Positions 19,848 through 51,200 of a stretch of DNA of 64,000 nucleotides are shown piece by piece; positions within the stretch are counted from its first letter, which is position 1; the number at the start of each line of letters is the position of its first letter. The notes under the pieces were generated by a model, which worked only from the letters and a program-made list of their open reading frames with translations, did not search any database and had not been told where the DNA came from. A program made the translations under genes and the position numbers. The DNA comes from Brachycybe producta. Taxonomy: Eukaryota > Arthropoda > Diplopoda > Playtdesmida > Andrognathidae. The stretch spans positions 2,949,957-3,013,956 of the forward strand of contig JAUPFP010000008.1 in the NCBI GenBank assembly GCA_036925085.1, in the 5' to 3' direction.

Positions 19848-21891
19848 ATGGCTCCGTGCTTGAATTATGACAGTTTTATGCAAACTTTAAGAGAAGAACC
19901 GCCAGAACAAAGCTTACCTGCTGTAGACGTTCTTTTGAGATGTGCTTCCAACATTCTGAATCATCCAACCGAACCGAAATACAGACGAATTAAGATCGGA
20001 TCTCGAGATGTTACGGAGAAATTGATTCCGGTCAAAGGTGCCTTAGAATGTCTCTTCTTCGCAGGATTTACTGAGGTTGACGACAACAAGTTCACAAACA
20101 CACACATTGTTATTTTATACTGATGTTAGTTTGGTATATTTTACAGGATACGGATTATCTCGTTTACCCACACGATGCTCCAACTGTCCCACTGCAACAT
20201 CTGCACTCTGCTCTTCTCAGACTACGTAAGGAACTTGTACAAAAGAATCAGCCGCCGATGCTACTGTGGGACACTAAGACGTATCCACAAGATATACACG
20301 TAAATAACAATGAAATATACACACAAATCGATAAAAAACGTGTCTTAACTTTTATTTCAGGCTCGCGAAATCGTGTTTAACCAAAAAATTGTAGCATCTA
20401 TTGATCTAGTTCGGCTGTACGAAGATGCTGACCTTCAAAAAGAAGCGAAATGTCGTATTCCTGTTGATCTTCTTTTAGAAAAAGCAAAACGAAGTCATTC
20501 TTCTGATAGTTCTGATAAAAATAAATTGGATGTTAATGATTATTTATTATTGGAACTGTTGGCGTGGTTCAAACACGACTTCTTTCGGTGGTTCGACGCG
20601 CCCAGTTGTCAATTATGCTCAAAACCGATGTTAAATATTGGCCACCTCGATCCAACGACAGAAGAACTGTTCTGGGGAGGAAATAGAGTGGAAGGACATC
20701 GTTGTGAGTCTTGTGCAACATCAGCTCGGTTTCCTAGATACAATCATCCGCGAAAACTTCTCGACACAAAGGTGGGTCGTTGTGGAGAATGGGCTAACTG
20801 TTTTACGCTCTGTTGTCGAGCTTTGGGGTTTGAAGCGCGTTATGCCCTCGATTGGACCGATCACGTGTGGACGGAAGTCTATTCGTCTTCACAGAGAAGA
20901 TGGCTCCATTGCGATCCATGCGAGAACGTCTGCGATAAGCCGCTGATCTACGAATCTGGATGGAATAAGAAGTTAAGTTACGTTCTTGCGTTCTCTAAGG
21001 ATGACGTTCAAGACGTTACTTGGCGTTATTCTGCTTATCACAAAGAAGTATTGCAACGTAGGTTACTTTGCCGCGAGTCGTGGCTTCTCGTAATTCTCAA
21101 CGAACAAAGAATCGAGATGCAGTCGAAACTAGATATCGGTAGGAGAAAAGAATTGACAGAACGACTGATAGTCGAATTGGTCGAATTTTTGAGTTCTAGA
21201 AATGCCAATGAAACAGAGACGAAAGGACGGATATCGGGATCCTTAAACTGGAGACGCCAACGTGGAGAATTAGGAATGGACGATCAGAAAGTACAGAGTA
21301 CAACCTTCGAATTAAATGACAAAGAAGTGAATACAAAGAAGTTTCATTTGAAATACTGTTCTGCTACTGATACTTACGTTCGTGTCGTCGACGGAGATTC
21401 CTCGTTTAAAGGATGGCAAAGTGGAGTTTATCTTGTATCTAACATTTTTCGTAAAGTAGAAACGGACTGGAAACAAGTTTATCTCGCAAGAACGGAAGGA
21501 AGCGAAGTCGGTATGATCAGCTGGAGGATCTCCGTTGCAAGAGATTCCAATCTTAGCGTTGCTTCGGTGTCAGTCAAATGTGATAGCGCAGTCTACGAGG
21601 ATGGCGACGTCGTTTGGAAAATCTGTGCTCGTGACAAATGTGTTAGGATTCCTAAAAGTATGAAATTCTTGATGTTCCGTTTTTATCTTTCAGCATTGAA
21701 GAGTTTTTTTGTTTTCAGACGGATTCGTTAGTTTCACGAGTGAAGAATTTTCCGGTGAAAGAGAAGTGACCGTTTCGGCTGAACTGTCCAGAGGAAAAGG
21801 AGACGTCGCCTGGCAACATGCTCAACTTTTCAGACAGTCATTACATGATATCAACGTTTTTCCTTTTGACGTTTGCATTTTATATAAATAA
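19848..21891 (+). CDS. NGLY1: NGLY1, cytosolic peptide:N-glycanase
   Basis: Removes N-glycans from misfolded glycoproteins exported from the ER, ahead of proteasomal degradation. Exons 19848-20075, 20147-20299, 20361-21657 and 21719-21891 (GT-AG) give 616 residues (human 654). Domains: an N-terminal PUB domain ([30 protein letters not shown]) that binds p97 in relatives; a transglutaminase-like core with the zinc pairs CQLC (about 210-213) and CESC (about 242-245) and the catalytic triad Cys ~268 in GRCGEWANC, His ~295 in DHVWTEVY and Asp ~312 in HCDPCEN; then a PAW mannose-binding domain over the last ~170 residues ([20 protein letters not shown]). All key residues are present, so the enzyme looks intact. 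Poly(A) signal at 21945. Upstream shares a divergent promoter region with NR2C2AP. Confidence 0.95.
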
Positions 21892-22257: not shown

Positions 22258-24424
22258 TTACATTCTATGAAATCTCGTAGCCAAGTGTTCGACCCAAGCA
22301 GTTAACGACATGTCACCTTCGTTAATCTAACGAAAGAAACGTCGAGTTGTTCAATCAAAAACAAAACTAAAGCCTTCAGAAAAGTAAAACCAAACCTGTA
22401 AGTCTACATCTGTGTCCGCACCTTCAATTCTTTCAATAGAGATCTTTCCTTTGAGTGGATAGCCTCTCGGAATATTCATCATACAATTGATGTTAACACG
22501 ATCTCCTAAAAGAACACACAGTTTGCCTTCATCTGGTTGCCAATCGATGGGATACCTAAAAAAACGTCAAGCAATATAAACTCAGAACTGAATTGTTGCC
22601 CCACTTTTTTTTTGACATGTTGCTTTCTACCTTTCACGTAGAGATATGACTTCGAGTAGTAGAAAAAAGTGTTTCTTCCAAGCGGCTTGTACGTTTATCA
22701 GCAGATAAACTAAGTCATTTTTCTGTATGGCAAAATCCATTATTGTTTCAACGTTGAGACTATCGTGGTTGACCTAGAACAAAAATAAAAGTAGAACGAA
22801 TAGTTGTGATCAGTGTTTGACATGCAAGTAATAAAGTTGTTGTAAGTTTTACTTTTGCGTGCATTATAGAATAAGGGTTTCCATAACGCTCTCGACTCAT
22901 GAATGTGACTGTCAATATGAGACGAGGAGCATTGTGAGGTGAATCGTGTGGATTTAAGAACTCAAACGCCAGTGTGTTGCTGTCAACGGTGTGACTACGT
23001 AAATCGAATGCGTGCGGAAGTTTTGCCACAACTTCGGAACACCTAAAAAAAAAAGTGAAACAAAACCCAATATTTGAATAAAGCAGCTTTTTTTTTATTC
23101 AAATTTGCTCAATAGAAAATTTTGTTGTGATTTATATTAATCAATAATTTAAAAAGTCACAACCATTATGCAATTGACAATGCGAAAACGACGTACCAGT
23201 TAGAAAGAATGTCTCCCTGTTCGTTACATTCAACTTTACGATTCCGCAGTTGGTTAATGAAATTTTTTGTCCCGTCTAGAAAATCTTCCATTTTGCAACA
23301 CGTCTCAGTCAACGCTTCCTTCTCCATTTTCACATTCGAAATTGAAAGTTCTGTCGAAACGATCGCCTTTTCAAGAGAAGCTAATTTACGTTTCTAAAAA
23401 AAAAAATAGAAACAAAACAATCACCTTGTGCCTGAAATTGTTTCGTTTAACATTTTACACACTCTGTCTGAGAATTCTTCCTTTTTAAGAGCCACAACGT
23501 GAGAATTCAGTCCAGTTCTTAGTCGTTTATAGCATCTGAAACCTTCTTCAAACTTCCCCTTCTATAGAAATAACAACATAAAAGAAAATAATCTATTAAG
23601 ATATAAAATAGAAAAGTATGAAACAAACTTTCGATTGAATACATACTTCGTTACAGAGAATTCCGAGGATATTATCCACTTTTTTAAGATGTTCTTGGAG
23701 AAGTTTAATGCCTAACAAGAAAACAAAAGACAGATTAAAACAAGCGCCCAAACTTTGGAAGAGAACTCTGAAAGTGTGTTGTTACCTTCTTCTGCATTGT
23801 CTGAATTTTTCGTTAACTTCATTCTTAAGAGCGAAACACTTTCTTTTAGTCGTCCGGTCAATTGTTTAAGCCTTGAAATATCGTCTTCTGGAAACAGAAT
23901 CAATAAACAAGACAAAAAAAATTAACAACAAATAAAAATACTGGCGATAAACCTAACCTCCAAACCACAAACACGTAGAATCGTAGATATCACGTACAAA
24001 TGCACTGGAGGATTTTAACGTTCTCACCGTTATTGGGGGCTTCTTCTAGTTCTTCTAACTTCTGTAAAAGACGATGAAACATCTGAATCGCCTCTCTAGC
24101 CTCCAAGAAGTTGACTTTTGCCGAATCGAAAGCCATCTGTAAATGAAACAGTTAAACGAAACTGTAACTTGGGCGGAAACTCTCAATTAGTAAAAACCCC
24201 TAACATTTTCTGTCTAATAATAATAATAATAGGAATAGTTTTCTCAAAACTTTCACAATTCTTTTGTATAGTTTCCATCACTTTCTGCGATTCAGAGAAA
24301 CTCTGCAATGTTTAAATGAATAATTTTCTGAATTTCTTGCCTTTAAACTTCCACAAAGAGCTTTGACCATCCTGGCATCCGGCTGAGACACATTCATCAT
24401 CGCGGTTCCTGAAGCAGTAAACAT
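22258..24424 (-). CDS. Unrecognised coiled-coil protein, 440 residues
   Basis: Eleven exons joined by phase: 24424-24341, 24302-24198, 24136-24028, 23887-23786, 23711-23647, 23561-23463, 23393-23197, 23042-22853, 22773-22631, 22555-22396 and 22326-22258. I do not recognise the family. Residues ~30-250 are heptad-like and charged (SESQKVMETIQKNCESFEK, ISRLKQLTGRLKES, IKLLQEHLKKVDNIL, RKLASLEKAIVSTELSISN). The C-terminal ~190 residues look globular, with ARLILTVTF-like strands (APRLILTVTFMSRERYG), a long hydrophobic helix, IPRGYPLKGKISIERIEGAD and a closing helix. That order, coiled coil then a strand-rich domain with a YPxxxP-like turn, recalls RWD-type kinetochore or scaffold proteins, but this is only a guess. 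Intron 1 appears to be GC-AG (AAG then GCAAGA). The donor ending exon 6 (AGA then GTGTGT) is weak and is the least certain junction. Convergent with NGLY1. Confidence 0.7.
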
Positions 24425-25000: not shown

Positions 25001-25340
25001 GAAAGCCCGTTTGGGACATTTCGCACAATAATTTACGTTCAATAATATTGCGTACGCGCTCAATAATATTGTGCACAAACATTGAACAAAATGTCCCATT
25101 TGGAGCACCAGTGAAAAAGAAGTAAATGTGCACTATACCTTAGAGAAATGGAGCAAATTAATTTCCCCAAAAAAACATATTAGGAAGTTATATAAAAAGC
25201 GTTATAATCTAAAATTCATCTAAATATTGTTTTTATTTATAGGCGCGAAAAGCAGTCAAAATAGAGGGTGGGGGGTGTACACAATAATATTGAAAGTAAA
25301 ATATTATGCGAAATGTCTCAAACAGGCTTCCGTATAATAT
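25001..25340. mobile_element. Foldback element preceding the satellite array
   Basis: Left end GAAAGCCCGTTTGGGACATT with following TTCGCACAATAAT; right end, read in reverse, GGAAGCCTGTTTGAGACATT with TTCGCATAATATT. A further inverted copy of the end sequence sits internally (about 25070-25105), so the left half can itself form a hairpin. No clear target duplication. Confidence 0.65.
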
Positions 25341-25359: not shown

Positions 25360-28300
25360 TTCAAATACAATAAATCTAAATAGACACCTCCAAGACTTGA
25401 ACTCAGGACCTCTAGCTCAGAAAGCAGCACTCTTAACACCATAGCTATACTGCCAACTGCAATGGCAGGACCAATAAATTATACTTAGGAATTCTTTAAC
25501 ACCTTGAATATTTCATATAAAAAATTAAAAAATTCAGCCAAAGTAGATGAAGCCACCGTCTCCATTAAAAAAATTTTGCCAAAAAGCAAAAACTTTTTTT
25601 GAAGGTATAGGATTTTTAACATAGAACTTTTTTAATTAATGGTTGAAATGTTTGAAGACGTGGGCGCTATAATCAACTATTACATATAGTCCATGTATAA
25701 AGTGTTACATTGGGTTAGGTTAGTCGGTTAGTGTTGGGTTAGGCTATGTTAGTGAGGAGGAGGGGGGGGGGGGGGTTAGAATTTAAGAGGGAAAATTTAA
25801 AATTTGAAAGAATATACACGTAACTCATGTTTAAGAGAATAACAATAGATGGCGGTATCATCACTATTAAAAAATTTCTTAAATTTTGGTGGGTCGGAAG
25901 GAGAGGTTATAGTTGTCGCTATAACAAGAATATTATTGTGTGTGGCAAGTGTGCCTAAAAATATTAAAAACAAAAGAGACACTACTGAGGCATGAACCAC
26001 TGAATGCAAGATCACAAGGCAGAGATGCTACCAACACAGCTAAACTGACAACTGTGACATCAAAATTAATAAATTTTACTTAGGAACCTTCATAATCTTG
26101 TAAGTTTCCTAAAATAAAATTAAAACAAAATTCAGCCAAAGTAGATGGAGGCACCGTCTCCATTAAATAAATTTTACCAAAAAGCAAAAACTTTTTTTGG
26201 AGGTATAGGATTTTTAACATAGAACTTTTTTAATTAATGGTTGAAATGTTTGAAGACAGGGGCGCTATAATCAACTATTACATAGAGTCCATGTATAAAG
26301 TGTTACATTAGGTTAGGTTAGTGTGTTAGGCTATGTTAGTGGGGGTTAGAATTTAAGAGGGAAAATTTAAAATTTGAAAGAATATACACATAACTCATGT
26401 TTAAGAGAATAACAATAGAAGGCGGTATCATCACTACTAAAAAATTTCTTAAATTTTGGTGGGTCGGAAGGAGAGGTTATAGTTGTCGCTATAACAAGAA
26501 TATTATTGTGTGTGGCAAGTGTGCCCAAAAATATTAAAAACAAAAGAGACACTACTGAGGCTTAAACCACTGAATGCAAGAACACATGGCAGAGACACTA
26601 CCAACACAGCTAAACTGACAACTGTGACACCAAATTTAATAAATTATACTTAGGAACCTTAATAACCTTGTAAGTTTCCTAAAATAAAATTAAAAAAAAA
26701 TTCAGCCAAAGTAGATGGAGCCACTGTCTCCATTAAAATTTTTTTGCCAAAATGCAAAAACTTTTTTTGGAGGTATAGGATTTTTAACATGGAACTTTTT
26801 TAATTAATGGTTGAAATGTTTGAAGACAGGGGCGCTATAATCAACTATTACATAGAGTCCATGTATAAAGTGTTACATTAGGTTAGGTTAGTGGGTTAGT
26901 GTTGTGTTAGGCTATGTTAGTGGGGGGGTTAGAAATTAAGAGGGAAAATTTAAAATTTGAAAGAATATACACGTAACTCATGTTCAAAAGAATAACAATA
27001 GATGGCGGTATCATCTCTATTAACAAATTTCTTACACTTTGGTGGGTCGGAGGGAGAGGTTATAGTTGTCGCTATAATAAGAATATTATTGTGTGTGGCA
27101 AGTGTGCCCAAAAATATTAAAAACAAAACAGACACTACTGAGGCTTGAACCACTGAACACAAGATCACATGGCAGAAACACTACCAACACAGCTAAACTG
27201 ACAACTGTGACACTAAAATTAATAAATTATACTTAGGAACCTTTATAACTTTGTAAGTTTCCTAAAATAAAATTAAAAAAAAAATTCAGCCAAAGTAGAT
27301 GGAGCCACCATCTCCATTAAAAAAATTTTGCCAAAAAGCAAAAACTTTTTTGGAGGTATAGGATTTTTAACATAGAACTTTTTTAATTAATGGTTGAAAT
27401 GTTTGAAGACAGGGGCACTATAATCAACTATTACATAGAGTCCATGTATAAAGTGTTACATTAGGTTAGGTTAGTGTGTTAGGCTATGTTAGTGGGGGAG
27501 GGGGTTAGAATTTAAGAGGGAAAATTTAAAATTTGAAAGAATATACACATAACTCATGTTTAAGAGAATAACAATAGAAGGCGGTATCATCACTATTAAA
27601 AAATTTCTTAAATTTTGGTGGGTCGGAAGGAGAGGTTATAGTTGTCGCTATAACAAGAATATTATTGCGTGTGGCAAGTGTGCCCAAAAATATTAAAAAC
27701 AAAAGAGACACTACTGAGGCATGAACCACTGAATGCAAGATCACAAGGCAGAGATGCTACCACACAGCTAAACTGACAACTGTGACACCGAAATTAATAA
27801 ATTTTACTTAGGAACCTTCATAATCTTGTAAGTTTCCTAAAATAAAATTAAAACAAAATTCAGCCAAAGTAGATGGAGGCACCGTCTCCATTAAATAAAT
27901 TTTACCAAAAAGCAAAAACTTTTTTTGGAGGTATAGGATTTTTAACATAGAACTTTTTTAATTAATGGTTGAAATGTTTGAAGACAGGGGCGCTATAATC
28001 AACTATTACATAGAGTCCATGTATAAAGTGTTACATTAGGTTAGGTTAGTGTGTTAGGCTATGTTAGTGGGGGTTAGAATTTAAGAGGGAAAATTTAAAA
28101 TTTGAAAGAATATACACATAACTCATGTTTAAGAGAATAACAATAGAAGGCGGTATCATCACTATTAAAAAATTTCTTAAATTTTGGTGGGTCGGAAGGA
28201 GAGGTTATAGTTGTCGCTATAACAAGAATATTATTGTGTGTGGCAAGTGTGCCCAAAAATATTAAAAACAAAAGAGACACTACTGAGGCTTGAACCACTG

Positions 28301-31300
28301 AATGCAAGAACACAAGGCAGAGATGCTACCAACACAGCTAAACTGACAACTGTGACACCCAAATTAATAAATTATACTTAGGAACCTTAATAACCTTGTA
28401 AGTTTCCTAAAATAAAATTAAAAAAAAATTCAGCCAAAGTAGATGGAGCCACTGTCTCCATTAAAAATTTTTTGCCAAAATGCAAAAACTTTTTTTGGAG
28501 GTATAGGATTTTTAACATGGAACTTTTTTAATTAATGGTTGAAATGTTTGAAGACAGGGGCACTATAATCAACTATTACATAGAGTCCATGTATAAAGTG
28601 TTACATTAGGTTAGGTTAGTGGGTTAGTGTTGGGTTAGGCTATGTTAGTGGGGGGTGTTAGAATTGAAGAGCGAAAATTTAAAATTTGAAAGAATATACA
28701 CATAACTCATGTTTAAGAGAATAACAATAGAAGGCGGTATCATCACTATTAAAAAATTTCTTAAATTTTGGTGGGTCGGAAGGAGAGGTTATAGTTGTCG
28801 CTATAACAAGAATATTATTGTGTGTGGCAAGTGTGCCCAAAATATTAAAACCAAAAGAGACACTACTGAGGCTTGAACCACTGAATGCTAGAACACAAGG
28901 CAGAGATGCTACCAACACAGCTAAACAGACAACTGTGACATCAAAATTAATAAATTATACTTAGGAACCTTAATAACCTTGTAAGTTTCCTAAAATAAAA
29001 TTAAAAAAAAAATTCAGCCAAAGTAGATGGAGCCACTATCTCCAAAAAAAAATTTTTGCCAAAATGCAAAAACTTTTTTGGAGGTATAGGATTTTTAACA
29101 TAGAACTTTTTTAATTAATGGTTGAAATGTTTGAAGACAGGGGCACTATAATCAACTATTACATAGAGTCCATGTATAAAGTGTTACATTAGGTTAGGTT
29201 AGTGGGTTAGTGTTGGGTTAGGCTATGTTAGTGGGGGGGTGTTAGAATTGAAGAGCGAAAATTTAAAATTTGAAAAAATATACACATAACTCATGTTTAA
29301 GAGAATAACAATAGAAGGCGGTATCATCACTATTAAAAAATTTCTTAAATTTTGGTGTGTCGGAAGGAGAGGTTATAGTTGTCGCTATAACAAGAATATT
29401 ATTGTGTGTGGCAAGTGTGCCCAAAATATTAAAAACAAAAGAGACACTACTGAGGCTTGAACCACTGAACACAAGATCACATGGCAAAGATGCTACCAAC
29501 ACAGCTAAACAGACAACTGTGACACTAAAATTAATAAATTATACTTAGGAACCTTTATAACCTTGTAAGTTTCCTAAAATAAAATTAAAAAAAAATTCAG
29601 CCAAAGTAGATGGAGCCACCATCTCCATTAAAAAAATTTTGCCAAAAAGCAAAAAGTTTTTTGGAGGTATAGGATTTTTAACAGAACTTTTTTAATTAAT
29701 GGTTGAAATGTTTGAAGACAGGGGCACTATAATCAACTATTACATAGAGTCCATGTATAAAGTGTTACATTAGGTTAGGTTAGTGTGTTAGGCTATGTTA
29801 GTGGGGGAGGGGGTTAGAATTTAAGAGGGAAAATTTAAAATTTGAAAGAATATACACATAACTCATGTTTAAGAAAATAACAATAGAAGGCGGTATCATC
29901 ACTATTAAAAAAATTCTTAAATTTTGGTGGGTCGGAAGGAGAGGTTATAGTTGTCGCTATAACAAGAATATTATTGTGTGTGGCAAGTGTGCCCAAAAAT
30001 ATTAAAAACAAAAGAGACACTACTGAGTCTTGAACCACTGAATGCAAGAACACAAGGCAGAGATGCTACCAACACAGCTAAACTGACAACTGTGACACCA
30101 AAATTAATAAATTATACTTAGGAACCTTAATAACCTTGTAAGTTTCCTAAAATAAAATTAAAAAAAAATTCAGCCAAAGTAGATGGAGCCACTGTCTCCA
30201 TTAAAAAAATTTTGCCAAAATGCAAAAACTTTTTTTGGAGGTATAGGATTTTTAACATGGAACTTTTTTAATTAATGGTTGAAATGTTTGAAGACAGGGG
30301 CGCTATAATCAACTATTACATAGAGTCCATGTATAAAGTGTTACATTAGGTTAGGTTAGTGTGTTAGGCTATGTTAGTGGGGATTAGAATTTAAGAGGGA
30401 AAATTTAAAATTTGAAAGAATATACACATAACTCATGTTTAAGAGAATAACAATAGAAGGCGGTATCATCACTATTAAAAAATTTCTTAAATTTTGGTGG
30501 GTCGGAAGGAGAGGTTATAGTTGTCGCTATAACAAGAATATTATTGTGTGTGGCAAGTGTGCCCAAAAATATTAAAACCAAAAGAGACACTACTGAGGCT
30601 TGAACCACTGAATGCTAGAACACAAGGCAGAGATGCTACCAACACAGCTAAACAGACAACTGTGACATCAAAATTAATAAATTATACTTAGGAACCTTAA
30701 TAACCTTGTAAGTTTGCTAAAATAAAATTAAAAAAAAAATTCAGCCAAAGTAAATGGAGCCACTATCTCAAAAAAAAAATTTTGCCAAAAAGCAAAAACT
30801 TTTTTGGAGGTATAGGATTTTTAACATAGAACTTTTTTAATTAATGGTTGAAATGTTTGAAGACAGGGGCACTATAATCAACTATTACATAGAGTCCATG
30901 TATAAAGTGTTACATTAGGTTAGGTTAGTGGGTTAGTGTTGGGTTAGGCTATGTTAGTGGGGGGGTGTTAGAATTGAAGAGCGAAAATTTAAAATTTGAA
31001 AGAATATACACATAACTCATGTTTAAGAGGATAACAATAGAAGGCGGTATCATCACTATTAAAAAATTTCTTAAATTTTGGTGGGTCGGAAGGAGAGGTT
31101 ATAGTTGTCGCTATAACAAGAATATTATTGTGTGTGGCAAGTGTGCCCAAAAATATTAAAAACAAAAGAGACACTACTGAGGCTTGAACCACTGAACACA
31201 AGAACACAAGGCAGAGATGCTACCAACACAGCTAAACTGACAACTGTGACACCAAAATTAATAAATTATACTTAGGAACCTAAATAACCTTGTAAGTTTC

Positions 31301-32720
31301 CTAAAATAAAATTAAAAAAAAATTCAGCCAAAGTAGATGGAGCCACTGTCTCCATTAAAAATTTTTTGCCAAAATGCAAAAACTTTTTTTGGAGGTATAG
31401 GATTTTTAACATGGCACTTTTTTAATTAATGGTTGAAATGTTTGAAGACAGGGGCGCTATAATCAACTATTACATAGAGTCCATGTATAAAGTGTTACAT
31501 TAGGTTAGGTTAGTGTGTTAGGCTATGTTAGTGGGGGTTAGAATTTAAGAGGGAAAATTTAAAATTTGAAAGAATATACACGTAACTCATGTTTAAGAGA
31601 ATAACAATAGAAGGCGGTATCATCACTATTAAAAAATTTCTTAAATTTTGGTGGGTCGGAAGGAGAGGTTATAGTTGTCGCTATAACAAGAATATTATTG
31701 TGTGTGGCAAGTGTGCCCAAAAATATTAAAAACAAAAGAGACACTACTGAGGCTTGAACCACTGAACGCAAGATCACAAGGCAGAGATGCTACCAACACA
31801 GCTAAACTGACAACAGTGACAACTGAATTAATAAATTATATTTAGGAACCTTCATTATCTTGTAAGTTTCCTAAATTAAAATAAAAAAAAAATTCAGCCA
31901 AAGTAGATGGAGCCACCGTCTCCATTAAAAAAATTTTGCCAAAAAGCAAAAACTTTTTTGGAGGTATAGGATTTTTAACATAGAACTTTTTTAATTAATG
32001 GTTGAAATGTTTGAAGACAGGGGCGCTATAATCAACTATTACATAGAGTCAATGTATAAAGTGTTACATTAGGTTAGGTTAGTGGGTTAGTGTTGGGTTA
32101 GGTTAGTGGTTTAGTGTTGCGTTAGGCTATGTTAGTGGGGGGGGGGGGGGGGGGGGGTTAGAATTTAAGAGGGAAAATTTAAAATTTTAAAGAATATACA
32201 CTTAACTCATGTTCAAAAGAATAACAATAGATGGCGGTATCATCTCTATTAACAAATTTTTTAAATTTTGGTGGGTCGGAGGGAGAGGTTATAGTTGTCG
32301 CTATAATAAGAATATTATTGTGTGTGGCAAGTGTGCCCAAAAATATTAAAAACAAAACAGACACTACCGAGACTTGAACCACTGAACACAAGAACACATG
32401 GCAGAGACACTACCAACACAGCTAAACTGACAACTGTGACACCAAATTTAATAAATTATACTTAGGAACCTTCATAACCTTGTAAGTTTCCTAAAATAAA
32501 ATTAAAAAAAATTCAGCCAAAGTAGATGGAGCCACCATCTCCATTAAAAATTTTTTGCCAAAAAGCAAAAACTTTTTTTGGAGGTATAGGATTTTTAACA
32601 TAGAACTTTTTTAATTAATGGTTGAAATGTTTGAAGACAGGGGCGCTATAATCAACTATTACATAGAGTCCATGTATATGGTGTTAGGTTAGTTAGTGGG
32701 TTAGTGTTAGGTTAATGGGA
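25360..32720. repeat. Satellite array, about 12.5 units of ~0.58 kb with tRNA-like core
   Basis: The anchor GGTTGAAATGTTTGAAGAC recurs at 25641, 26239, 26809, 27392, 27967, 28537, 29120, 29701, 30277, 30846, 31431, 32000 and 32620. Spacings are 598, 570, 583, 575, 570, 583, 581, 576, 569, 585, 569 and 620. Each unit holds a GTAGATGGAGCCACC block, an AGGTATAGGATTTTTAACA block, a TTAGGTTAGGTTAGTG telomere-like tract followed by a G-run of variable length (up to 22 at about 32137-32158), an open frame of ~72 codons on the minus strand, and a tRNA-like segment. That segment, read on the minus strand, has box A TAGCTGTGTTGG, box B GGTTCAAGCC 32 nt later, and a TTTT stretch shortly after. Length differences follow a three-unit pattern. 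No host gene lies inside. Confidence 0.95.
25375..25461 (-). ncRNA. tRNA-like segment in the first, most diverged array unit
   Basis: Minus-strand sequence with a box A-like TAGCTATGGTGTTAAGAG, an anticodon-arm-like region (GCTGCTTTCTGAGC) and a T-arm whose 5-bp stem CTGAG/CTTGG closes over TTCAAGT. It resembles the tRNA-derived head of a SINE more than a functional tRNA: the acceptor stem is poor. It shows where the array core probably came from. Confidence 0.5.
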
Positions 32721-32913: not shown

Positions 32914-36969
<4,056 letters not shown>

Positions 36970-48220: not shown

Positions 48221-51200
48221 CTTTAAGTTTCTGTAAAACTGCAAATCTGGCTTTTCTTTCTTGATCCAATTCATTACAGAGTGTTCCTATAGTAATGAGA
48301 AATAGGTTTACTCATTAGTAACACAATTTATATTGAAAAAAATAAATATATTTAAGTCTAATGAATCACCTTTAACAATTTCTAATTGCTTTGTAATTTC
48401 CTCTCTGTAAGCAACTTCCCTTTTAACTTGTTCTTGAAACGTTTCTGAAATAAAAGTTGTCTTCGTTTAAGTGACTTTGACTAAACAATAGTTTTCAAGC
48501 ATTTTTTTTAAATTTTGGGCACATTCAGAAACGAAATAAAAAACCATTATTTGTAACCATGCTAGCTAAACAACATTCTTTCTCTAGTTGATTAAATATG
48601 GTGACCTTCCCGTTTGTTTCCACTATTCCCTCCTCATATGAGGCTTTGTATTGTGCAAGGAGGCAGGAGCAATTACTCTTCTAGCTTATTTATAGCATAA
48701 AGTGTTTAGTTTCCGATTGCACCTATTTTATTTTTTAAAAAATAATTAATTATTGCTGTCTGTGACTTAATTCTTGGAAATATTAGTTAATTAAAATGAC
48801 ACCTAAATCAAACATCAGTCGGATATAATTCCTAAATATGAATAATTTCAGCTAAAATGTTTCTAAACACACAAATACTTGACGAATGCAACTTTAGTTT
48901 GACCTTTAATAAAAATTTATCTACAAAATAATTAAAAAATTTTGCAAAATAAATAATCAAGTAGATCTTTTTTTTTTTTGTTGTTGTTGTTAAAAAAAAC
49001 CATGAAATACGATTACAGATAAAGTCTAAAAGGTACAACAAATACATATAAATGTAACCTTGCGACAAATTAAAAGAATCTAAAAAAAAAAAACGTCATT
49101 CTTTACAAGAGAAATCCCAAATAATCTTGTTACATATGCTTCAATGGAAACTTAAAAAAGTAGAAGGGGGGGGGAGCTTAAATATTCAACTCTTACCATA
49201 TTTTCTACCAAATTCAGATTGTGTGTACAGTTTGTAGATGTACTTTAAATGTCATTCAAATATAATAAAGAAACACGTTTTGTTCAAATGTTTCCAATTT
49301 TTATATTAAATATATACATATCTATTTCCTTATATTTCAAATACTCTTCTTTCTTAAGCCGTTTTGTGTATTTTTTTTATATATATATACTGCAGATTTA
49401 ATATTACTGATAAATTTTATACATTTTCAAAACGCTTTTACGTTATATTCGAGAATAAATGCAAAAGAAAACTATAAACTTTTCGATTTCATACTTTTAA
49501 TCAAATTGTCTTATTATTTGTCGAAAAACAAAATTATCTTGAGTGGTTTATATTGTTCATATCTTTCAAAATAAAACTTTTTGTAGCAGTTCGTAAATGT
49601 GCATTGTGGAAGTTGAACACGGGTTCCATGGCAGGTCAACTGTTCACCACTTGCTTAACGTTGATTCCCAAATGAATTATATAAATAGGAACGTGCGCAA
49701 TTAAATAGGTTAAGGATGCACCTCCACACTTGCAACACTCCACATGAATGCACCGCAACTTTAATTGTGCATAGAAATGGACACACTGTCTGGAAAGGGA
49801 TCTACAGTATGGTCCCGAGTACGTTGACTGGGGCGGTATAGAGTCAAGGCGACCCATAACCGTGGTGTTGCAAGTTAAACCCGGGTTTCACGGTGGGTCC
49901 ACTGTTCACCACATACTGAACATAGCGTTGATTCGCAAATGTGTGGTATAAACAGGGACGTTTGTACTAATAAGTACCTTAAGGTTGCACTTGTTAAGGT
50001 TGCACCTCCACACTTGCAACACTCCACATGAATGCACCGCAACTTTAATTGTGCATAGAAATGGACACATTGTCTGGAAAGGGATCTACAGTATGATCCT
50101 GAGTACGTTGACTGGGACGGTATAGGGTCAAGGCGACCCATAACCGTGGTGTTGCAAGTTAAACCCGGGTTTCATGGTGGGTCTACTGTTAACCACATAC
50201 TGTACATAGCGTTGATTCGCAAATGAGTGGTATAAACAGGGACGTTCGTACTAAGTATGAAAAGGGTGCATCTCAATATTTTTCATTATTCTAGTTTCTA
50301 GAAAACTTTCAATTTTTTTTAATAAAATTAGATTCGATTAAGCAAAAAATACAACAAGGTTCTTCGTCCCACCTTTGCTATTAAATGCATTATCCTGAAA
50401 TCACTTAGAGAAACAGAGCAAATAAAAATATAAACTCAACAGTTTCAATGTGTTCTGTTTTGTTGTTCCACAAACTACAGGAGTTAAGAGGGCCACTTTT
50501 GGCCCTGACTAAAGAAGACATCTTGAATTTCAACCATTGCTTTATACAGTTGAAATTCAAGCTAAGCAAAATATGTAGCTGAAAATAAGGTATTGTCAGA
50601 AAATTCGAAGCTCCAAATGGATTTAGTGACTTTTTCTGTGTGACTTTTTCTGTCACAATTTTTCAGAAGAATTTGAAACCAAATGAGTCAAGAAATCAAA
50701 GGGTTAAGAAGTGGTTTTTATTGTTCATATCTTTCAAAATAAAACTTTTTGTAAATTTGCAATGTGGAAGTTAAACACGGGTTCCATGGTGGGTAAACTG
50801 TTCACCACTTGCTTAACGTTGATTCACAAATGAATTATATAAATAGGAACGTGCACAATTAAACAGGTTAAGGATGCACCTCCACACTTGCAACACTCCA
50901 CATGAATGCACCGCAACTTTAATTGTGCATAGAAATGGACACACTGTCTGGAAAGGGATCTACAGTATGATCCCAAGTACGTTGACTGGGGCGGTATAGG
51001 GTCAAGGCGACCCATAACCGTGGTGTTGCAAGTTAAACCCGGGTTTCACGGTGGGTCCACTGTTCACCACATACTGAACATATAGCGTTGATTCGCAAAT
51101 GTGTGGCATACACAGGGACGTTTGTACTAATAAGTACTTTAAGGTTGCACTTGTTAAGGTTGCACCTCCACACTTGCAACACTCCACATGAATGCACCGC

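Follow-up and report, generated by a model that had tools for sequence, protein, structure and literature searches.

A tandem array with tRNA-like RNA polymerase III promoter boxes in Brachycybe producta, probably expanded from a dispersed composite repeat

A tandem array in which most units bear the promoter boxes of a transfer RNA (tRNA) gene raises the question of what the repeated unit is and where it came from. We examined such an array, about 7.3 kb long (25382-32719), in a 64,000-nt stretch of the 295-Mb genome of Brachycybe producta (contig C8, positions 2949957-3013956; hereafter the window). We consider it probable that a single copy of a composite repeat, non-coding and dispersed through the genome, expanded locally in tandem to form the array, and that this repeat carries a predicted RNA polymerase III (Pol III) mini-gene. 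Read on the plus strand, the composite would consist of an AT-rich end, an antisense tRNA-like head (H), the modules S1 and S2, a GGTTAG-rich module T and often a further module, S4 (Table 1). Most of the copies examined retain box A, box B at a 32-nt spacing from it and a TTTT run, and the anticodon and acceptor stems of the tRNA are gone.

The array consists of a ~0.58-kb unit in 12 full copies of 569-620 bp each, followed by a last, partial unit of 360 bp, which bears out the tandem array of the first-pass annotation. The units run head to tail and are nearly identical, as in a satellite: the full inner units (2-12) share 93.3-99.5% pairwise identity over aligned bases, and the partial unit matches them at 92.5-95.3%. 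Unit 1 shares 82.1-89.0% identity with all other units and has a head distinct from the inner heads. Because the inner units are the most alike and the first unit the most different, the array would have grown by unequal exchange or replication slippage. Some units find their best match three or four places away (2/5 at 99.5%, 7/10 at 98.8% and 4/8 at 98.3%); such matches among non-adjacent units are expected under exchange of multi-unit blocks, and we infer that blocks of this kind were exchanged within the array.

On the minus strand, box A (TAGCTGTGTTGG), which agrees with the tRNA consensus at 11 of 12 letters, was exact in 11 of the 13 units, the exceptions being unit 1 and unit 5 (27707), which has a 1-nt deletion. 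Box B (GGTTCAAGCC) was exact in just 7 of the 13, and the remaining six differed by one or two letters (GGTTCATGCC in two units, and GGTTTAAGCC, GGTTCAAGAC, GGTTCAAGTC and AGTTCAAGTC in one unit each). The gap between the boxes was 32 nt in 11 of 13 units, and TTTT began 12 nt past box B in 12 of 13, unit 1 having instead a T6 run that begins 33 nt past box B. The spacing and the T run soon after the boxes had both been reported at first pass and were found again; the accompanying claim that most units contain the two boxes held well for box A and less well for box B. We then searched both strands for box pairs with a gap of 25-60 nt and compared the counts with 20 dinucleotide shuffles of the 64 kb. 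With at most one mismatch per box, the array held 9 pairs, the rest of the window 0, and the shuffled 64 kb 0.1 (maximum 1). With one and two mismatches the corresponding numbers were 11, 2 and 1.95, and with two and two mismatches 24, 18 and 25.6. At this loosest setting the array, which makes up 11% of the window, would be expected by chance to contain about 3 pairs rather than 24, and the 18 pairs outside it, against 25.6 in the shuffled sequence, place the rest of the window at chance level.

The heads are not tRNA genes. ARAGORN called no tRNA in the window, and Rfam at its cut-off found none there. The array searched whole against Rfam gave no tRNA match at E values up to 10, 18 other loci of the family described below, searched whole, gave none, and a single inner head submitted alone gave none up to E=10. 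The covariance-model check proposed at first pass therefore returned nothing at the cut-off; below it, the head of unit 1, submitted alone, matched RF00005 over 1-71 with 16 bits against a cut-off of 29. In addition, the anticodon and acceptor stems are mostly unpaired. Intact tRNA genes in the array are thus excluded by ARAGORN, the Rfam cut-off, the single-head searches and stem pairing.

Similarity to tRNA is nevertheless present along the length of the head, in a single orientation, as in a tRNA-derived repeat. An ARAGORN run at 80% that allowed long introns gave very many matches and was replaced by an intron-free run with a test of match position. At the 80% cut-off, 49 of 182 matches fell on heads, which make up about 4% of the searched bases, and all 49 lay on the expected strand; at 85%, 90% and 95% the matches on heads were 18 of 48, 6 of 11 and none. 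We further compared 37 head sequences (35 loci, the consensus of those and one inner head of the window) with 20 of the 63 listed tRNA genes of this genome. All 37 outscored the best of 30 shuffles, some narrowly (26 versus 14 for the consensus), and 36 of the 37 scored highest against tRNA-Thr among these 20 genes. Parents other than tRNA-Thr may apply, since the panel spans only six amino-acid types (Lys, Thr, Arg, Ala, Cys and Ser). A tRNA-Gln parent was tried and rejected, a vertebrate tRNA-Gln sequence scoring 17 against the head consensus and the tRNA-Thr(AGT) of the genome 26. Judged by the RF00005 match, the strand agreement and the similarity to tRNA genes of this genome, the array head is a tRNA relic, in line with the origin suggested by the first-pass annotation.

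Two observations concern other tRNA-like sequences. Left of the head in L027 and L033, reading by eye found a second, different tRNA-like sequence, which suggests another tRNA-headed repeat family. Genuine tRNA genes also occur in tandem in this genome: C3:2752517-2754368 holds 12 full matches in steps of ~153-173 bp, of which the one sampled is a tRNA-Lys(TTT), and C18:1393169-1394066 holds six in 165-bp steps near a sampled tRNA-Arg(TCT) at C18:1392300.

The unit belongs to a dispersed family. A 22-mer from the S2 core occurs at 430 genomic places with up to three mismatches, against 0 for a reversed-pattern control, and single copies, for which a search had been proposed at first pass, are among them. 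Across the family, H, S1, S2 and T follow one another in this plus-strand order, often with S4 behind. Of the 100 exact core places listed, 64 lie no more than 1300 bp from another on the same strand; the 100 form 38 clusters, 23 of them single. About ten loci hold their own arrays of the family unit, with unit lengths of 425, 479/612, 510, 570-584, 605/624, ~615 and 738 bp; the arrays read, from the part of the genome's copies that was listed, contain about 3-13 units. The segment between T and the next head also varies: it is S4 in the window array, and in L011, L012, L036 and L037 it resembles hairpin repeats of other loci. These several unit lengths and the differing T-to-head sequences suggest that arrays of the family probably formed repeatedly, and each may have arisen where the element already sat, absorbing local sequence into its units. 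In S4, many dispersed copies carry AATAGATGGCGC (for example L039 near 2390), which we take to resemble a CTCF site; in the window array the site reads AATAGAAGGCGG in many units (27573-27584).

The orientation of the head bears directly on how the family could have spread. The tRNA strand points away from the S1-S2-(GGTTAG) body in 35 of 36 aligned loci, that is, in all that have a head. Each head reads as a short predicted Pol III gene reduced to its control signals, which would be able to bind the transcription factor TFIIIC. Were TFIIIC to bind, transcription by Pol III would begin a short way upstream of box A and end at the T run, and the predicted RNA, about 80-90 nt long, would be directed away from the core. 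With the head facing outward and TTTT soon past box B, this transcript would exclude the body, and an RNA directed away from S1-S2-T cannot be a retroposed copy of the unit. Exclusion of the body argues against a classical short interspersed element (SINE) and for spread within a larger or DNA-based element, which would have been followed by local tandem growth. The predicted Pol III activity of the heads is most likely a tolerated passenger activity, and the unit probably belongs to a known general class of mobile-element passengers rather than serving as a dedicated gene boundary.

To see what the family retains, we aligned copies drawn from the top of the match lists, best matches and exact 22-mer matches first. 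Requiring an S2 match of at least 161 of 181 bases at 85% identity or more, with flanks of at least 300 and at least 500 bases, left 134 copies; taking one copy per locus and merging neighbouring loci left 36 loci. One of these, L026, has no recognisable head and was counted in the 36-locus conservation and TTTT tests and left out of the tRNA-similarity and stem-pairing tests. S2 was the best-conserved module, at ~0.95 identity in the aligned part over the 36 loci, a value biased upward because a 22-mer within S2 had helped to select the loci. Conservation at box positions exceeded that elsewhere in the head, strongly for 12 fixed box letters and weakly for whole boxes. These 12 letters, chosen from the tRNA consensus once the alignment had been inspected, averaged 0.928 over the 36 loci, and other head columns 0.79 (p about 1e-4 over columns). 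In the 134-copy alignment box B reached 0.865, above the head mean of 0.802. The gap was 32 in all ten array consensuses, with 28-40 allowed, and a TTTT run followed the box B match by at most 60 nt in 35 of the 36 loci, and likewise in 129 of the 134 copies, compared with 58% of random points. Pairing is mostly lost in the anticodon stem (50 of 175 cells paired) and in the acceptor stem (118 of 240); the T stem (124 of 173) and the D stem (97 of 139) both overlap boxes. No stem of the cloverleaf paired more often than randomly dealt partners did, so we found no covariation. In the box A consensus of five of the six largest array groups the final letters are TTGG, nearer the tRNA consensus than TGGCTGTGGGGT, the consensus from one copy per locus, a purely descriptive contrast.

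Several results weigh against the explanation we favour or limit the evidence for it. Whole boxes averaged 0.813 (A) and 0.866 (B) over the 36 loci, and for both boxes together the difference from other head columns was marginal (p 0.04, or 0.06 with a wider head). Over the 134 copies box A, at 0.757, fell below the head mean. In ten array loci (L009/L010 and L020/L021 pooled) the boxes did vary less, in support of that explanation: 92 of 1404 box cells differed from the array consensus, gaps counting as differences, compared with 463 of 4368 other head cells (Fisher p 2e-6), and boxes were the lower in nine of ten loci, not in L019. This comparison, however, makes no correction for shared ancestry among units, and several of the groups include extra or non-tandem locus copies. 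Within the window array variability was highest in the head sequence outside the boxes (0.056); that of the boxes was 0.019 against 0.025 for the whole unit, which is not clearly slower, and 239 of 531 equally spaced site sets were as low as the boxes; box B, moreover, is altered in 6 of 13 units. The expectation at first pass that box positions change more slowly than the rest of the unit thus met with a split outcome: it stood for the array loci taken together and for the 12 fixed letters, was not clearly borne out in the window array, and did not hold for box A over the 134 copies. Finally, S4 and the neighbouring inverted repeats mean that the element which moves may extend beyond the limits given here.

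This last point leads to the alternative that survives best, namely that a foldback or Galileo-like DNA transposon supplied the units as its inverted, internally repetitive ends, with the tRNA relic as cargo. Inverted arms were found in 13 of 15 loci examined, taken from 40 fetched and mostly chosen for having both orientations, and not all arms belong to this family; those of L038 measure 458 nt. In some other loci S4-like sequence lies inverted across the head, to its left. Inverted copies in many loci, together with S4 inverted across the head, keep a foldback-like origin in play, and the ends of Galileo can bear tandem repeats (PMC3573991). Set against this, neither a transposase nor a complete element was found, and several arrays, including that of the window, have no inverted partner in the stretch read. 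An ORF-like fragment (ORF, open reading frame) adjoins S4 ends in L009, L016, L017 and L018; the 79-aa piece (L016:851-1087, minus strand; L018 from 7290) could be what is left of a coding element, and it gave no Pfam match up to E=1. We regard a foldback origin as unlikely, although it deserves to be taken seriously. As a candidate for an autonomous partner, the S4-side fragment was rejected on its 8 short matches in the genome, with no Pfam family and no transposase.

Less probable still is a classical tRNA-derived SINE turned satellite, in which a Pol III RNA started at the head was retroposed by a long interspersed element (LINE) and one insertion was tandemly amplified. The promoter of a SINE reads into its body, and here the head lies opposite to S1, S2 and T in 49 of 49 ARAGORN head matches, with TTTT at most 60 nt past the box B match in all but one of the 36 loci, so that the predicted RNA would lack the body. 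These features contend with a tRNA head that carries box A and box B, the internal Pol III promoter boxes of a SINE at the level of sequence, with hundreds of genomic places and with a GGTTAG-rich run that borders the core on one side and varies in length; SINE-derived satellites are also known (PMC10702118). On balance the dispersed relatives of the unit do not look like a normal SINE, and a tRNA-derived SINE in the usual sense appears doubtful. The first-pass annotation had offered a SINE or a tRNA relic as the source: the relic and its dispersed family are supported, and the classical SINE is in doubt.

It is also conceivable, though we would give it little weight, that the repeat is a mobile Pol III promoter cassette, in which selection within the repeat retains TFIIIC binding (both boxes, exact spacing and terminator) and not the tRNA product, and stalling of TFIIIC or Pol III at the head repeatedly drives local tandem duplication. 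Sites of Pol III and TFIIIC can hinder the progress of replication forks, and the head might favour tandem duplication in this way. If true, a promoter cassette would have seeded ready-made TFIIIC-bound arrays at many genomic places. Tandem repeats with Pol III promoters have been described in a few vertebrates, and their promoters may either ride along passively or bring about the tandem growth; with several arrays and many single copies, their boxes intact or damaged, this genome allows the two possibilities to be tested.

The gene context does little for a selected TFIIIC-bound boundary between neighbouring genes, akin to extra TFIIIC (ETC) sites. Ten window ORFs scanned against Pfam identified genes for KIF-binding protein, Ski/Sno, MCM and PNGase. 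The array had been placed between two divergent genes at first pass; the nearest Pfam-matched ORFs on its two sides are both on the plus strand, and, given an unmatched minus-strand ORF, a divergent gene is conceivable. Many box pairs do stand in a row between coding regions, and box letters are better preserved than other head positions, with the cloverleaf gone. The family, however, is present at hundreds of other places, six of the 13 array units have an altered box B and the recognised flanking genes share one strand, all of which makes a boundary function very improbable. A chance origin of the boxes in AT-rich repeats can be dismissed: the empty Rfam searches of the array and 18 other loci, and two-mismatch pairs outside the array no commoner than chance, would suit it, but the 9 strict pairs against 0.1 expected, the finding that every one of the 37 head sequences scores higher than shuffles against tRNA genes of this genome, and the strand agreement of all 49 ARAGORN head matches, contradict it.

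Two further repeats were noted in the window. One, directly left of the array (25001-25331), has inverted ends and CAATAATATTG motifs, and ends resembling its own adjoin other family copies (L014, L025, L029 and L039). The other is a 284-bp tandem duplication at 49709-50254 (1.9 copies, 95% matches).

Table 1. Positions in the window of the array, its heads and modules, the promoter signals of one example unit and flanking features
Feature	Position	Strand	Basis or remark
Array of 12 full units plus a partial unit of 360 bp	25382..32719	- (strand of the tRNA-like heads)	unit comparison
Unit 1 head, tRNA-like	25382..25454	-	65% identity to reference head; RF00005 full-length match, 16 bits
Unit 2 head (H)	25978..26064	-	unit alignment
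Further inner heads, start positions	26548, 27131, 27707, 28276, 28859, 29443	-	unit alignment
Further inner heads, start positions (continued)	30016, 30586, 31170, 31740, 32360	-	unit alignment
TTTT, terminator-like, example	31164..31167	-	12 nt past box B
Box B GGTTCAAGCCT, example	31180..31190	-	unit at 31170
Box A TAGCTGTGTTGG, example	31223..31234	-	unit at 31170; 32 nt upstream of box B
Module S1, example unit	31257..31320	+	
Module S2, example unit	31321..31501	+	best-conserved family module
Module T, example unit	31502..31532	+	GGTTAG-rich, length variable
Module S4, example unit	31533..31737	+	
Left flank with inverted ends (gaaagcccgtttgggacattt / aaatgtctcaaacaggcttcc)	25001..25331	.	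by-eye reading
PNGase-like exon	20349-21731	+	nearest Pfam-matched ORF on one side of array
ORF without Pfam match	22760-23098	-	
MCM exon	34748-35179	+	nearest Pfam-matched ORF on other side of array

How does the array compare with known systems, as judged by their general features? ETC sites and tDNA insulators are TFIIIC-type promoter boxes without a functional tRNA product, and ETC sites are single sites defined by measured binding. The array resembles them in having boxes without a functional tRNA product; its binding of TFIIIC is predicted. Galileo and foldback elements, in the part of the account in PMC3573991 that we draw on, have long inverted ends, in some Galileo subfamilies with tandem repeats inside, which recalls the inverted arms and arrays seen here; we found neither a transposase nor defined ends, and that part of the account describes no tRNA relic for Galileo. 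Repeat-derived RNAs more generally have been reviewed (PMC4233971).

Closer parallels come from vertebrates, again as given in the portion of PMC10702118 considered here. PolIII/TAN of the newt Cynops pyrrhogaster is a ~360-nt tandem repeat with a tRNA-like sequence that can be transcribed in vitro, and that portion reports no similar SINE identified for it. It shares with the window array a tandem unit bearing a tRNA-like sequence, and differs in that the unit here is ~580 bp and has dispersed copies and several separate arrays. The Xenopus OAX and green-frog Rana/polIII repeats likewise have a tRNA-derived or tRNA-similar segment, in other hosts, and the authors regard the newt and frog repeats as inconclusive cases of a SINE-to-satellite transition. 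The SINE-derived satellites of squamates (sSats) originate repeatedly from SINEs, and their units are parts of SINEs, the 67-nt snake unit containing box B. In common with the family described here, they show repeated origin of tandem units from dispersed repeats with a tRNA head, and a deviating terminal unit; our family, in contrast, keeps both boxes and its head faces away from the body. By analogy, the array appears to be of the general kind of tRNA-containing tandem repeat already known in newt, frogs and squamates, set apart from the cases described in that portion because several of its arrays keep both boxes at a fixed spacing together with a terminator, and because the head points outward.

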